This document shows positions 38,683 to 62,661 of a DNA stretch of 64,000 nt, one piece after another; position 1 is the first letter of the stretch; each line of letters starts with the position of its first letter. Made by a program: the position numbers and the translations under genes. The stretch is from Actinomycetes bacterium. GTDB taxonomy: Bacteria; Actinomycetota; Thermoleophilia; BMS3ABIN01. The stretch spans positions 62,001 through 126,000 of the forward strand of contig JAJYOG010000001.1 of assembly GCA_021785935.1 (NCBI GenBank). The letters are read 5' to 3'. The notes beneath the pieces are model-generated. The model saw only the letters and a list, made by a program, of their open reading frames with translations. It was not told the origin of the DNA and did not search any database.

Positions 38683-41600
38683 ATGCAAAGGCTTAAAGAA
38701 ACAATGGCGATTTTCCGTACCAGGTTGGGCTGGAAATTACTGACGCCGGTAATTTTGGTGCTGGCGTTATTTAGCTTCCCGATCTATTTGATTCATTACA
38801 ACAATCAGGTTGTCGATCGCACCAGCGACTTGGTTTCAAGCAGAGATGAAGCCATCGATCGTCTCAACCAGATGGAATCTTCCCTCAAGGCAGAACAGCT
38901 AGTAGCTTACGAAATTGTCTTTGATCACCGGTCCGATTTGGTCGCAAACTTCCAGGCGGCAGCAGCCAATGTACAGTTTTGGCACGACCAAGTTATGGAA
39001 CACGTCGATTACCCCAGCGAAGCAGCGGCATTGGAAGAATGCCAGACGCTTCACAATCGCGTGCAGTCGATCGTCATGAATCAGATTGTACCGATGGTGC
39101 AAACGCCGAATCCTGATCATACACAAATGGTGCCACTGGAAACCGAGATGAACGCAGACTTCCAGCGCATATCAGATTTGTGGCAACAGCTGTCGGATAA
39201 ATTTACCGCCGACAAAACGTCCGCAATGCGGGACGGAGTCAGCTCACGCGCATTTGCCTCTGAAATGATATGGGCCAGTATAGCTGGCGCCCTGCTCCTG
39301 GGGCTTATCATCGCGGGAGCTTTCGCCAAGCGCCTGATCGTACCGATTAAAAGGCTTGCCGAGGCCTCGGTTCAGGTAGCGCGCGGCGACCTTTCTCAAA
39401 GGATAGATGTTACTGGCCACGATGAACTGGCGAGCGCCGCCAGAAGCTTCAATGGTATGGCTGACTCACTGGAACGGCGGACCCTTCAGCTGGAGCGTGA
39501 AAAGGCGCGAATTCGATCAATCCATCAGAGCATAGGTGATGGCATCGTCGTCGTCGATCGGGGCGGTATCATCATTTCCGTCAATCCAGCGGCTGAAAGG
39601 ATTCTCGGGCATCCGGTAACGCAATTGGAGAGAACCACCGACACCGGTGTGCCCAAGCTTCAGGAAGCCATTACCCGGAAGATTAAACCGGACGCAATGG
39701 TTAAATGCTGGGAGGCAAAAGATTGCAAGAAAGAAGAATGTCCTGCCCACGGCAGTATCGACCGGCGCTGCTGGCTGCAGCGCGGCACTTATTGCTACAA
39801 CCAGATCCAGGGCACCTTCAAGCAGAAACGTGATGCCTGCGAGCGTTGCGATGTCTTTTTGAGAAATGCTGCCCAGGAACTGACCCTGGAGATCGGCCAT
39901 CACCAGTACAGCACCTCGATCATTCCGATTCTCGACGATGAAGGCCAGGAAGAAGGACGAACCGTCGTCATGCACGATGTTACTGAAGTGCTCGAGGCAA
40001 AGGATGCGGTCGAGCGGCACAGTGCGGAGCTTGCAGCCATTAATAGCATCAGCGAGGCGGTATCCGAATCGCTTGACCTGGAAACAACGATATCGCGAGC
40101 GCTCGATAAAATTACAGAATTTGAAAAGGTGGAGAGCGCCGCCATTCATATGGTCGACCCGACCGGCAAATTCCTGGAGCTAAAGGCGTCGCGCGGGCTC
40201 GGCATGCATTTGAAGCAAGCCATCGAACGAATTCCCATCGGAGAAGCGATCGTTGGCAAAGTGGCCCAGACCGGATCTCCGGCCATAGTCGGGGATCGTC
40301 GGGGCGACGAGGACGAGAATATCGCTGAAGGAACAGCAATAGAAAAATATCTTTCGATCCTTTGCGTGCCCCTTAAATCGGAAGGTCGGAACATAGGCAC
40401 TATTTCCTTCGGCGCGGTCGCGACCGACTCCTACACCGAGGCTGACAGTCGTACGATGACCCTCGTCGGCAATCAGCTGGCGGCGGCGATTGAGAACTCG
40501 ATCATGTACGAGGAATCTCTCAGACTTTCGCGTTACCTGGAGGCAAGAAATAACATTACCACTGCGCTGGCGGCGAACATGGAGATCGACAAGGCGTTCA
40601 AGGATTTCTCCCGGGAGACCGGCCGGCTCGTCGATTTCGACCATCTCAGCATCATTGCGGTAGACGAAAAAACCATGGGTATCAAACAGGTATTAACGGA
40701 CACCGCCGACTCCGACTTTCCTTCTCTTCTGGGGAACGAGCCATCGGTCAAGGGTTCGACTCTGGAGGCAGTCATTCGAACCCAGCAGCCTTATATGACG
40801 GGTATGATTGCCGAGGAGCCCCCGTTCAGGGGTCAGGAAGACCTGAAGAAGCTCGGGTTGAAATCGAAGCTGAACCTGCCGCTGATAACGCGTGGCCGAT
40901 GCCTGGGCACAATGAATCTTGGGAGCCGCAAAGTCAATGCTTACGATGAGGAAACAATCGACCAGCTTCAGCCTGTTGCTAAGCAGGTCGCCCTGGCGCT
41001 CGCCAACCAGGAACTCTTTGAGGACATTGCCCGCGCCAAGAATGAGTGGGAAAAAACTTTTGACTCCGCCAGTGAGGGTATTGTCATGATCCGCGAAGAT
41101 CATCACATTCTTCGTCTGAACAAGTCGGCAGCCCGGATGATGGGCGGTTCGGTTGAGGAATTTGTAGGCAGGCTCTGCTACGAAGTTATTCACGACAGCG
41201 GTGAGATGCCGCAGGAATGCCTGATGAAACAGTCTTTCTCCGGGTCTTCATCAATTCGTGGCGAGCAGGAAATGGATGATGGACGCACAATCGAGTTGGT
41301 CGTCGACCCGGTTTATGGTAACGCCGGCCACCCGATAGGGGCGATTCATTTCATGCGAGACATCACCGAAGCCAAGAGGCTCCGGAAACAACTTCTTCAG
41401 TCGGAAAAAATGATAGCTGTGGGGCAGCTGGTCGCGGGTGTGGCTCATGAAATTAATAATCCATTGACCGGAGTTATTGGTTATGCCCAGCTGCTAATGG
41501 CGCGGGACATCGACGATCAGACCAAGAAGGACGCGGAGGGCATCTGCCATGAGGCGGAAAGGGCAACCAGAATTGTTAGGCACCTCCTTTCATTTGCGCG

Positions 41601-42597
41601 CAAATATCAGCCAGAAAGAAAAACCGTTGACATCAATGCGGTTCTGCGTGAGACCATCGAGCTTAAGGAGTACGAGCTGAGGGTAAATAACATCCACGTT
41701 GAGGCCGCCCTGGATGACGGGCTTCCGCTTACCGCCGCCGACCCGCATCAGTTGCAACAGGTTTTCCTCAATCTGATTAATAATGCCGAACAGGCAATGC
41801 GGGAGGACCGGGGAACTGGTTTATTGAAAGTATCTACCCAGGCCATCGACGGAAAAATCCGTATCTCATTTGTCGACAACGGCCCCGGTGTGCCGGAGGA
41901 CATTCGCGGCCGCATCTTTGACCCGTTCTTTACAACCAAGGAAGTAGGCAAGGGAACAGGCCTGGGTCTTAGCGTCTGCTACGGGGTTGCTCAGGATCAC
42001 GGCGGCCGTATCTGGGTTGAACCGTCTCCCGACCGCGGTGCGACCATAATCATGGAGCTGCCTGTGGAAACGGCGGTCTTCGCGGAGAGACCAGAAGGGG
42101 AGCCCGATCGCACGAAAGTTGTAAGGCGGTCGGGCAAGGTGCTTCTGGTTGATGATGAGGCCGCTATCCGAAAAGTGCTGTCAGAAACACTGAAGCAGGC
42201 CGGGCATGAGGTTGATACCGCGGTTAACGGCGAAGTAGCTCTGCGCATGCTTAAGCAAAAACACTACGATTGTGTTGTCAGCGACGTCAAGATGCCAAGT
42301 ATGGATGGACCCTCGCTGCACCGGGCTATTCTGGGTACAGACCCGGCCCTTGCTGGAAGCTTCATCTTTATCTCCGGAGACACGATCAGTCCGGATACGA
42401 AATCATATCTTGACCGCGTCGATAATCCCCGCCTGGCAAAACCATTCGACAGATTGACCTTGAAATCCTGCTGCAAAAGGTGCTCGCATCCGGAGCCGAA
42501 AAGGGCCTGGAGCAGAAGTAACGGGTCTAGGGCACCACGTCAATTCTGCCGGTATCATCCTCGGCTTCCATTGTTCCTATACGCGCGGCGATTATAG
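38683..42597 (+). CDS. Large membrane hybrid sensor histidine kinase (HAMP, PAS, GAF, PAS, HisKA, HATPase, REC), probable 3' frameshift
   Basis: Order: TM about residues 17–37, extracytoplasmic helices, a second TM near 190–215, HAMP ([20 protein letters not shown]), a PAS domain interrupted by a Cys-rich two-CW-like insert ([16 protein letters not shown], then DACERCDVF), two GAF domains, a second PAS, HisKA with phospho-acceptor His near 922 ([12 protein letters not shown]), HATPase ([19 protein letters not shown]) and a receiver domain with Asp near 1201 ([13 protein letters not shown]). At 42448–42453 the receiver leaves frame after LAKPFD: the frame one base over continues [14 protein letters not shown] and ends at TAA 42521, as a normal receiver does. 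The open frame instead runs to 42597 and overlaps selD. An assembly error or a real mutation are both possible. The Cys cluster suggests redox or metal sensing. Confidence 0.88.
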
Positions 42598-43588
42598 TGC
42601 CCGCGTCCTTGAGAGCCGCTTCCAGGCCATCGGCCTTTTTAGCCGGGCAGGAGATCAGCAGGCCGCCCGAAGTCTGGGCATCCGCCAGCATCAGCCGTTC
42701 GGCCTCAGTGATTCCGGGGTCAAAGTTCACGAACGATGACACGAATTTTAAATTGTTCTTGCTACCGCTAGGTACAGCATCCAAATCCGCGTCAATCAGA
42801 TCGCGGGAGGCCTGCATTACCGGGACGGCGCGGGCATGAATTCTGGCGCCGACGCCACTTCCCTGAGTCATCTCACCAAGATGTCCCAGGAGGCCATAGC
42901 CGGTTATATCCGTACAGGCATTGATGCCGACTTCGATCATGGCCAGCGACGCGTCACGGTTAAGCGTAGCCATGACTTCTACGCCCCGGGCTATGGCCGC
43001 TTTGGAGACTGTTCTTCTTTTGATGCCAGTGGTCAGTATGCCGACTCCCAATGGTTTGGTCAGAAAAAGAACGTCTCCAACCTGTGCCGTCGAATTATAA
43101 ACAATATCCGCTGGGTCGATGATACCGGTTACCGAGAGGCCATACTTGGGCTCCTTGTCGTCGATGGTGTGGCCACCAATGATGGAGACTCCGGCCTCGC
43201 GGGCCTTGTCGCCGCCTCCCTTCATCATCCTGATCAGGATCTCCAAAGGCAGGCCGCGGCTGTGAAAGCCAACCACATTGAGGGCGATCAGCGGCTTGGC
43301 GCCCATGGCGTAGACGTCGCTTAGGGCGTTGGCTACCGCGATAGCTCCATAATCGTATGGGTCATCAACAATCGGGGTGAAATAGTCAACTGTCTGGATA
43401 ATGGCGAGGCCATCAGCTATCTGATAGACGGCGCAATCGTCACCGGAATTGATTCCGACAAGCACATTGGGGTCGGTGATCGGAGGCAGCTCTTTTAGTA
43501 CTGTTTGCAAGTCCGACGGACTTATCTTGCAGGCTCAGCCGGCGCCGTGGGCCAATTGGGTCAGGCGGATCTCTTCATTGGCTCCCAT
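42527..43588 (-). CDS. selD: Selenide, water dikinase SelD, selenocysteine-containing (UGA at 43535–43537)
   Basis: 353 residues from ATG 43588, with AGAGGTGAT about five bases upstream. Codon 18 is TGA (43537–43535) within IRLTQLAHGAG-U-ACKISPSDLQT; other SelD proteins have Cys or Sec at exactly this catalytic position next to the conserved Lys. Downstream the ATP-dependent kinase continues without a break: GINSGDDCAVYQ, DYFTPIVDDPYDYG, GGHTIDDKEPKYG, DITGYGLLGH and ADAQTSGGLL. The reaction makes selenophosphate for selenocysteine and selenouridine. Conventional calling starts at 43510 and loses the active site. A SECIS-like hairpin follows the UGA. It is the last gene of a leftward run after the permease (80-nt gap). 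Confidence 0.93.
43509..43523 (-). promoter_or_regulatory. SECIS-like hairpin in selD
   Basis: On the transcribed strand AAGUCC-GUC-GGACUU forms a six-pair stem that starts 11 nt after the UGA, with a G in the three-base apical loop. Bacterial SECIS elements lie inside the coding sequence at this distance and are bound by SelB. Confidence 0.65.
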
Positions 43589-43668
43589 TCATCACCTCTT
43601 TAAGAGTATGGAGAACTTTCAGCTTGTTAAGTGATTGTATCACCGTTGCCGCAGTTGCAATCATCTGC

Positions 43669-44457
43669 TTAAGGGGTCACGAGGTCCCACACCATGCGCA
43701 GAGCGGTGGCGGCGATGAGGATGGCGAGTGCCCGGCGCAACAGGCGCCGCTGGGTCCGGGTCGATAGGCGGCCGCCGGCCTGCGCTCCGACCAGGGCGCC
43801 GCTGACGCAGAAAAAAGCCATGGCGTAATCAATCTGACCCGCAATCAGTTTCCCCAAAGAGCCGGCAAAGGCCGCCAGAAAGACTACGCCCAGCGAACTG
43901 CCGATGGCGACGCGCGTGGGGATTTTGAGGACGTAAAGCATAAGGGGAATGATGATGAAGGCGCCGGATTGCCCGACGAGTCCGCCAACGAGTCCTACCA
44001 CTATGGCAAGGACCAGGGCGAGCGTGTGGTTGAATTCGATCTTTTCGGCAATCGGCTCTCTGGCCTCCTCGTGGTGCGGGACAAGCATCATTGCGGCCGC
44101 GGCGAGGGCGAGAACAGCGAAGACTCCCAGGAGGACATCAGCCGAAACATTTTTTGAATACAGAGCCCCGGCGAGTGAGGCAACTGTTATGCCTGAGCCC
44201 ATCCATAGTACGATCGGACGGCTGACAAGGCGGGCCTTGCGGTGGACCAGGACGCCCGAGCCGGTGGCGAAAAGACTCTGGACCATGGTGAGCCCGGCGA
44301 TAACCTTCATGTCGAGAGCGCCGGCTCCAATCAGGGGAGGAACATAGAGCAGGAGCGGCGCCATGAGGATACCGCCGCCGATTCCAAGCCATCCTGAGAA
44401 GAAGCCGCCGACCAGGCCCAGGACGGCCAGGGTTATCGCCAGGAGTATTGTCATCAA
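43669..44457 (-). CDS. TauE/SafE-type sulfite/anion permease
   Basis: 262 residues and about eight hydrophobic segments arranged in two repeats: LGLVGGFFSGWLGIGGGILMAP at the start and LVGGLVGQSGAFIIIPLML in the second half, both the DUF81 signature (split here by the central linker HHEEAREPIAEKIEF). The family exports sulfite, sulfoacetate or related anions and takes part in sulfur metabolism. It is 19 nt after the class II aldolase and 80 nt before selD. The transported ion is unknown. Confidence 0.88.
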   Translation of the reverse strand: MMTILLAITLAVLGLVGGFFSGWLGIGGGILMAPLLLYVPPLIGAGALDMKVIAGLTMVQSLFATGSGVLVHRKARLVSRPIVLWMGSGITVASLAGALYSKNVSADVLLGVFAVLALAAAAMMLVPHHEEAREPIAEKIEFNHTLALVLAIVVGLVGGLVGQSGAFIIIPLMLYVLKIPTRVAIGSSLGVVFLAAFAGSLGKLIAGQIDYAMAFFCVSGALVGAQAGGRLSTRTQRRLLRRALAILIAATALRMVWDLVTP

Positions 44458-44476: not shown

Positions 44477-45040
44477 TCAGTCTGCCGCCTCTTCTTCTCC
44501 GGCTTGCCGTGTCAGGTACGCAACTTCACAGGAAAGTCCCAGTGCCGAGGTGTAAGCCAGTGCTTCATTCAGAGTGCGGCCGACTGCGTAAGAACCGTGT
44601 CCTCTAACGACGACGGCAACATGCGTTTGCAGGATCTGGGGAATGCGAACTGAAGCCTCCGCAGCTGCCACGACGGGAATTTCCCGCAGAAAGACGGTCC
44701 CCTCCAGATCTTGCGGTGCAATTATATCGGTCGTGAGGGACATTGCAACGGCATGCGCTGGATGGGCGTGAATGACTGCTCCGGCGGGAGTGAATTTGTA
44801 GATCAACTGGTGAAGGGCGACGTCCTTGGATGCGTCGGAAGTGATGTTGTCTGGTTCTTCGCGCAAAGGCACTTCAACCAGATCGTCAGGCTGCAGACGA
44901 GCCAGCATGGCGAAATGGGCAGTGACCAGCATTTTCCCCTGGTGGCGCACGCTCACGTTGCCGCCGTGAGATGTTGTCAGCTTCAGGCGCAGAAGGTCTT
45001 CGCCCACTCGCTGAAACTGGTCCAGAATCCGGTCTTGCAT
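44477..45040 (-). CDS. Class II aldolase/adducin family protein
   Basis: 187 residues from ATG 45040, with GGGAGG four to five bases upstream; a longer frame from 45091 is not supported. The zinc ligands of the family are seen in VIHAHPAHAVAM and VVRGHGSYAVG, and the phosphate-binding start in TTSHGGNVSVRH. Fuculose-/ribulose-phosphate aldolases and epimerases belong here. The genes on either side (Fe-S oxidoreductase and permease) do not fix the substrate. Confidence 0.87.
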   Translation of the reverse strand: MQDRILDQFQRVGEDLLRLKLTTSHGGNVSVRHQGKMLVTAHFAMLARLQPDDLVEVPLREEPDNITSDASKDVALHQLIYKFTPAGAVIHAHPAHAVAMSLTTDIIAPQDLEGTVFLREIPVVAAAEASVRIPQILQTHVAVVVRGHGSYAVGRTLNEALAYTSALGLSCEVAYLTRQAGEEEAAD

Positions 45041-45097
45041 TGATCCTCCCGATGTTTGTGTTTCAGGCGTTCGTCCCTGCATCGAGAGCAATATTCA

Positions 45098-53875: not shown

Positions 53876-53950
53876 AACAAAAGCTTCCACGGATATACCG
53901 TAGAAGCCATTAGCCCCAAGGGGCGCTTAAAGGCGAGCCTCATCGCCTGC
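53876..53950 (-). promoter_or_regulatory. Fluoride (crcB-motif) riboswitch with overlapping intrinsic terminator
   Basis: On the minus strand GGCGATGAGGCTCGCC (from 53947) is followed by TTTAAGCGCCCC, TTGG, GGCTAATGGCTTCTACGG, which matches the crcB-motif fold: P1/P2 stems, GGCGAUG start and the conserved AAUGGCU-CUAC 3' part. The 3' part also forms a ten-pair hairpin, GCTTCTACGG (53907–53898) with CCGTGGAAGC (53892–53883), followed by TTTTGTT. Fluoride binding would hold this segment and prevent the terminator, turning on crcB. Confidence 0.9.
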
Positions 53951-53979
53951 CCCGGGATCATAATCCCAGAGCGGTAATA

Positions 53980-61032: not shown

Positions 61033-62661
61033 CTACCTAACCTGGAACTTGAGGACTTTGTTGGACTTGGGTTCAATCACGTGAACCGCGCAAGCCATTC
61101 ATGGATCGAATGTGTGAACGGTTCGCAAGATCTCAAGCGGTTTGGTTGGATCGACAACCGGTGTTCCCACCAGCGCCTCTTCGACCGGGCCGCGCTTGCC
61201 GCTATCGTCGCGAGGCGACAGGTTCCAGTTGGATGGCGGTACGGCGGCATATGTGTCAATCTTGCCATTCTTGATCTTGGCGTAATGGCAGAGCGCTCCG
61301 CGGGGAGCGTCCCAACCGCTGAAACCGGTGCCATCCTTGCTGTAATCAAGCTCTTGATAGACCTGGGTGTTACCGCTGCCGATATTGGCCAGCAACTCGT
61401 CGGCCCATCTCAGCGCGTTGTCGGCGTTGATCTTGGCCTTGAGCACGCGCGCGGCAACGCGGCCGAGGTTTGAGAGCAGCACTGTGGGGTCTCCCGCGTG
61501 TCCGATCGCAGCCAAAGTGGTATCCACGAGCTGCTTGGCTTCCGGTCTTCCCGCGAGATAGGCGACCAGCATCTGCGCCAGCGGGCCGACTTCCATGGGG
61601 CGATTCACGTTGCCATACCGCACCGCCTGGGTCCAGTCGTACTTGCCTTCCGGCAGAGCCTCGCCATCAATTGGCGGCAGCTTGGTAAATTGCTGGGGTT
61701 CCTGGCCGACGTCCAGGGGATGTTTGCCGGCGCCTACGCCGTCGTCATACCAGGAGTACTTGGTAAATTGATGCGTCTCGTTGGGGTCTACTTTCTGCAA
61801 TGCCAGCTGGCCGTCGAAAATTCCCCCGCGAGGGAATAACCGGTCATAAGGATCCTGACTCTTTTCCTCCAGGACTCCCCAGGTGAGGAAATTGCCGACG
61901 CCTTTGCCGAACGCCGCAAGATCGAGATAATAAGGCGCGATCGCCAGCAGGTCCGGCACCATTACCGTGTCGATGAAATCCTTAACCTCGCCCATTTTGG
62001 ACTTGTAATACTCGATGTCCTCGATGCTGGGCATCTGGGTGACACCGCCCGGCACGTAGTTGTTGATCATGGGGTAACGTCCGCCCAGCACGGCGCTGCA
62101 GTCGCAGGCCTTCTGTTGTACTTCTAGCGCCTGCAGATAGTGAGCGGTAACCTCGAGGTCCAGGTCGGCCGGCAGCTTGTAGCCCGGATGATCCCAATAC
62201 ATGTTGGCAAACGGGCCCAGCTGGCCGGAGTCCACCACAGCCTTGACCTGATCCTGTACAGCCTTGAGGCCGGGCGTTCCCGGCTTTGCGTTCAGTGTGT
62301 TCGGCACGTTGACGTAGTCGAACCCGTTGAGGTGGTAGAACCAGAGGATGTGGTCGTATCCAAGCTGCGCTGCCTCCATCATGTTACGGATCAGGCGGGT
62401 GCTGTCAGGAACTTTATCCATTCCCAGCGCCGTCTCGACGGCCCTCACCGAGTTAAATGCATGTGGAGTCGGGCAGACGCCGCAGATCCGTTGAGCGAAT
62501 TGCCAGATGCTCTTGGGGTCCCGGCCCTTCATGAAGATCTCAAAACCACGGAAGAGCGTCGCCGTATTCCAGGCGTCCGTTACCTTCCCGTTTTCCACCA
62601 CGCAGGTGATGCGCAGGTGGCCTTCAATGCGTGTAATTGGATCGATGACAACCTTGGTCAT
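61033..62661 (-). CDS. [NiFeSe] hydrogenase large subunit, selenocysteine at UGA 61099–61101
   Basis: 542 residues when UGA is read as Sec. N-terminal metal pair RICGVCPTPH (Cys60, Cys63) after RIEGHLRI; the body is continuous to HTFDP (residue 520). There TGA (61101–61099) takes the place of the Cys codon of the C-terminal pair, and the frame continues MACAVHV, giving DP-U-MAC-AVH, then VIEPKSNKVLKFQVR and TAG (61035–61033). This gives the second metal pair (Sec521, Cys524) and a 15-residue extension after His527 for the maturation protease. Stopping at the UGA would delete two ligands of the active site. The exported enzyme oxidises H2 together with the small subunit. ATG 62661 abuts the small-subunit stop. 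Confidence 0.95.
61070..61087 (-). promoter_or_regulatory. SECIS-like hairpin after the hydrogenase UGA
   Basis: On the transcribed strand GGUUCA (61087–61082), loop CGUGAU, UGAACC (61075–61070): a perfect six-pair stem starting 11 nt after the UGA, the same distance as in selD in this window. It lies in the coding sequence of the C-terminal extension. Confidence 0.65.

Follow-up and report, generated by a model that had tools for sequence, protein, structure and literature searches.

Selenocysteine-containing SelD proteins

The SelD protein of Aquifex aeolicus (PDB 2yye, 2zod) is a selenocysteine (Sec)-containing selenophosphate synthetase (SPS-Sec). SelD is the second most widespread family of prokaryotic selenoproteins, Sec being a catalytic residue in the N-terminal loop (PMC13188914). 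It is often a selenoprotein itself, and the recoded UGA usually leads to misannotation of selenoprotein genes (PMC4561486). Actinobacterial Sec-SelD proteins were listed already in 2006, e.g. SelD of Rubrobacter xylanophilus (PMC1794560). The arrangement is thus long known, in Actinobacteria as well, and the finding reported here is true and ordinary in kind. In the lineage considered below, Sec-SelD is not described in the papers found.

The window is a stretch of 64,000 nucleotides from an assembly assigned to Thermoleophilia (GCA_021785935.1). The reading frame 43588..42527 on its minus strand is almost certainly selD, in which Sec would be inserted at the UGA codon 18 with the aid of a hairpin; the activity, the insertion of Sec and the contact of SelB with the hairpin are predicted from the family. 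Similarly to SPS-Sec of A. aeolicus and R. xylanophilus, the N-terminal loop has a UGA-encoded catalytic residue and, after it, a conserved lysine, the SelD domain is complete, the Sec machinery is present in the same genome, and the UGA codon leads to misannotation. The differences are the lineage (Thermoleophilia MAGs) and the position of the candidate SECIS element, which most UGA-containing SelD genes recovered have at a greater distance from the UGA. The Cys-type SelD proteins (loci L045 and L071; PDB 3u0o) have the same fold, can be aligned, and carry cysteine at the site of the UGA. However, their genes contain no UGA codon and therefore do not need an insertion hairpin.

The selD gene

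The following features were identified at the locus:
42527..43588, minus strand: selD, selenide, water dikinase, full length, 353 codons including one Sec-UGA
43535..43537, minus strand: in-frame UGA for selenocysteine at codon 18, within the catalytic loop HGAG-U-ACK
43592..43599, minus strand: ribosome binding site AGAGGTGA, read directly, preceding the selD start codon ATG 43588..43586
43508..43524, minus strand: proposed bacterial SECIS hairpin UAAGUCC-GUC-GGACUUG, with a 7 bp stem and a 3-nt loop that begins with G and lies 17 nt after the UGA

Read with TGA as U, the region is open throughout its 353 codons, and U occurs once, at codon 18. Plain ORF calling with translation table 11 yields only a 327-codon ORF starting from TTG at 43510. 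With its N-terminal part included, the product matches TIGR00476 at 375.6 bits (cut-off 125), from position 1 to 310 of the 311 in the model, and PRK00943 at 356 bits (cut-off 299). Its match to PDB 3u0o (1.4e-82) places the loop HGAGC(G)CK opposite HGAG-U-ACK, and 2yye is aligned likewise. Nine aligned SelD proteins all have Lys21, and all have either Sec or Cys in column 18.

An earlier note, made from the sequence alone, had claimed that SelD uses a UGA-encoded Sec and is mis-started by ORF calling, the frame continuing upstream of 43510 through the TGA at codon 18 to an ATG with a ribosome binding site. The coordinates and the sequence of this extension are right, and the claim is confirmed by the frame, the ATG, AGAGGTGA and conservation of the UGA in all 17 related genes (below). 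The same note assigned HGAG-U-ACK to the catalytic loop of SelD, where either Cys or Sec occurs, which agrees with the loop of 3u0o. The alignment with SelD families that it suggested for the 353-residue product also supports the identification, by TIGR00476, by 3u0o and by the nine-protein alignment.

The gene was compared across 19 genomes of the window's family, its own genome included. A SelD match was found in 17 of them (68-100% identity), and each of the 17 genes contains one in-frame TGA. No match was found in G006 and G011, both of which are fragmented or incomplete. Both carry SelA and the UGA-containing hydrogenase described below, and the missing SelD is likely an assembly gap.

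The candidate SECIS hairpin

Codons 21-26 of selD fold into the hairpin AAGUCC-GUC-GGACUU, and a U-G pair brings its stem to 7 bp. This is the six-codon stretch with the strongest codon conservation in the gene: among the 17 family genes the fraction of identical codons is 0.985, the gene mean being 0.524, and this was exceeded in none of 5000 permutations. Hence the hairpin is constrained at the nucleotide level.

The loop size, stem length, loop G and spacing are within the published limits for bacterial SECIS elements (bSECIS); for the distance between the loop and the UGA these are 16-37 nt (PMC13188914). Like the consensus, the selD hairpin has a 3-nt loop with G followed by U, a 7-bp stem, and a distance of 17 nt from the UGA. 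Unlike it, the hairpin is almost as close to the UGA as the limits permit, and the energy limit is reached by the local fold (-8.4 kcal/mol) with the surrounding pairs and not by the isolated stem (-6.0 kcal/mol). The SECIS folding check suggested together with the alignment thus had a positive outcome, both in the limits of the model and in the codon-conservation peak on the stem. Folding energy fails to single out the hairpin (z = -0.83, rank 39th of 347 codon positions in selD). As single-sequence folding is not significant, we relied on codon conservation as the evidence for the SECIS element. No Rfam family, SECIS families included, matches the hairpin.

A hairpin with the same spacing was found in a second selenoprotein gene of the window:
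61033..62661, minus strand: [NiFeSe] hydrogenase large subunit, 542 codons, with UGA codon 521 (61101..61099) in DPUMACAVH
61070..61087, minus strand: SECIS hairpin GGUUCA-CGUGAU-UGAACC of the hydrogenase gene, loop 17 nt after its UGA

The hydrogenase UGA and a near-invariant hairpin with the same 17-nt spacing are retained in all 20 related genes of the class (49-100% identity). A limited literature search yielded nothing on UGA-encoded Sec in [NiFeSe] hydrogenases of Actinobacteria.

The hairpin at 43508..43524 is unlikely to be something other than a SECIS element, with the codon conservation caused by another constraint and SelB using a different or looser signal. Such a reading would agree with the weak single-sequence fold, with a stem of only 4 bp in G017 and G015, both related genomes (loci L028 and L031; L055 is apparently the same gene as L031), and with the proximal stem hardly varying in the window's family, which leaves almost no room for covariation there. 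However, the position and the loop G are as expected of bSECIS, the conservation peak coincides with the stem, and the unrelated hydrogenase sequences form a hairpin at the same spacing. Moreover, in SelD genes of the proximal class outside the family the stem is kept with changed bases: 75% of it is paired, the maximum after shuffling being 67%. We thus consider the hairpin as the candidate SECIS element of selD.

Hairpin register across SelD genes

The SelD genes were scanned with one hairpin model, and the best hairpin of each gene defined its register class. The loop is situated about 17, 20 or 32-33 nt after the UGA. The spacing of 17 nt (proximal) is that of the window's family, about 20 nt is found in SelD of a sister family, and 32-33 nt (distal) in most other UGA-containing SelD genes recovered. 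In the window's family the distal stem is absent (19% of cells paired) and the proximal stem is present (98%). In the distal class 99.5% of the stem is paired, a value that is partly circular since these genes were chosen for having the hairpin, unlike the compensatory changes (21 pair types, 15.2 expected after shuffling).

Mapping the register onto the SelD tree requires a minimum of 12 changes among the three classes, the number being only indicative, given the weakness of many deep branches and the assignment of the classes by best hairpin. This suggests several register switches, and the insertion element seems to have shifted relative to a UGA that kept its position. It is rather probable that the register changed repeatedly in SelD, that SelB tolerates two or three discrete spacings within this one gene family, and that the element was rebuilt from different codons. 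This is a small point on what SelB accepts, and a modest addition to the finding itself.

Conservation of the UGA codon and of the upstream frame

In the 17 family genes the residues R8, L9, T10, A13, H14, G15 and G17 preceding the UGA are invariant, and all of them except G17 are encoded by two or three different codons. Fixed amino acids with varying synonymous codons mean that the stretch upstream of the UGA is translated. The remainder of the gene is intact and constrained as well, so that coding constraint acts on both sides of the UGA. A decayed or truncated gene would be expected to have an unconserved UGA and upstream part, whereas both are kept in 17 of 17 genes. It is therefore extremely improbable that the 5' part has decayed, with the UGA a true stop and the gene either a pseudogene or the source of a truncated SelD from TTG 43510, as the 327-residue ORF of the caller might indicate. 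Indeed, this TTG (43510..43508) has no ribosome binding site and lies within the proposed SECIS hairpin, and the product starting from it would have neither the catalytic residue nor Lys21.

Beyond the family, the closest SelD loci among named genomes are those of Thermoleophilia and Actinomycetes MAGs. The other families of the class include SelD genes both with and without UGA. Of the distant SelD genes recovered, the majority have UGA at the position of codon 18, and about 15 are scored as having cysteine there. One of the latter, L088, is an alignment slip, its UGA being located three codons further on, so that the count of four U/C changes for SelD is slightly inflated. In selD there is accordingly an in-frame UGA at a site where homologues have Cys, the classic Sec/Cys pair by which bacterial selenoproteins are recognized.

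Selenocysteine machinery and other selenoproteins

The genes selA (590 bits), selB (352 bits) and selC (tRNA-Sec, 67.8 bits, anticodon UCA) are located in a row on one contig of the same assembly, which comprises 1.86 Mb and is 78.6% complete. No second SelD scores above the cut-off in this genome, although at such completeness a second copy may have been missed, and none was found in congeners of 98-100% completeness. The next matches have at most 77 bits, below the cut-off, and do not span the whole model, which is what the wider ATP-binding superfamily would give. The selenouridine synthase gene ybbB, whose presence would have pointed to SelD serving selenouridine instead, was not found in the genome.

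The earlier note would have ascribed the 5' part to decay, had there been a second, Cys-type selD and no Sec machinery; what was found is one SelD together with selA, selB and tRNA-Sec. It had also proposed that the window encodes a selenoprotein along with a Sec-type SelD, and this stands, the other selenoprotein being the large subunit of the [NiFeSe] hydrogenase with U521 in DPUxxCxxH. In the same genome, the gene for the formate dehydrogenase alpha subunit contains one in-frame TGA (HCART-U-H) and a hairpin of the model 18-19 nt downstream. Other TGA-extended ORFs of the window were considered as possible selenoprotein genes; those searched against Pfam, the hydrogenase excepted, look like run-through past ordinary gene ends.

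Reassignment or general readthrough, with Trp or Cys inserted in place of Sec at the selD UGA, is hardly credible. The frame would stay open whatever amino acid UGA encoded, but this codon is an ordinary stop in the window (e.g. dnaN and recF would fuse at a UGA under readthrough), the identified UGA genes are textbook selenoproteins with the UGA at their Sec positions, and a tRNA-Sec with anticodon UCA is present.

With the UGA read as Sec, the following route may be proposed. SelD would make selenophosphate from selenide and ATP using Sec at loop residue 18, and SelA would convert Ser-tRNA-Sec into Sec-tRNA-Sec. SelB with Sec-tRNA-Sec, recruited by the hairpin with its loop beginning 17 nt downstream of the UGA, would decode the UGA in competition with the release factor. 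SelD would then provide the selenium donor on which its own synthesis relies, as well as that of at least two further selenoproteins, the hydrogenase and formate dehydrogenase. If Sec at residue 18 is inserted by the SelB/Sec-tRNA-Sec route, SelD depends on its own product. The biochemical steps of the SelD/SelA/SelB route are well established for these families; their assignment to this genome is based on sequence evidence. The uncultured Thermoleophilia are thereby added to the lineages in which the sole detected SelD is itself a selenoprotein and donor synthesis would depend on the pathway that it feeds, as known elsewhere. The point matters for annotation: with a standard gene caller, SelD of this lineage is left without its catalytic N-terminus and the hydrogenase without its C-terminal metal-binding motif.

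Neighbouring genes and other features of the window

Several further features were found in the window, the first three of them around selD:
43669..44457, minus strand: TauE/SafE-type permease gene
44477..45091, minus strand: class II aldolase/adducin gene
38683..42597, plus strand: large histidine kinase/response regulator gene
53894..53956, minus strand: fluoride riboswitch (RF01734, 47.8 bits)

The permease gene immediately precedes selD, the two being on the same strand. About half of the family share this order, as do loci L062, L063 and L100 of the Planctomycetota MAG MB_PLM_2 (47-49% identity). The permease is a candidate selenium-related transporter; alternatively, it may form a co-transferred pair with selD. 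Nothing relevant to a link between selD and TauE was found in the literature. Most genomes of the family have the class II aldolase/adducin gene near selD, either adjoining it or one gene away. The kinase/regulator gene has an apparent frameshift near its end, at about 42450, with a plausible tail of 23 residues after LAKPF in another frame. The listed ORF of this gene overlaps selD only because of this apparent frameshift.
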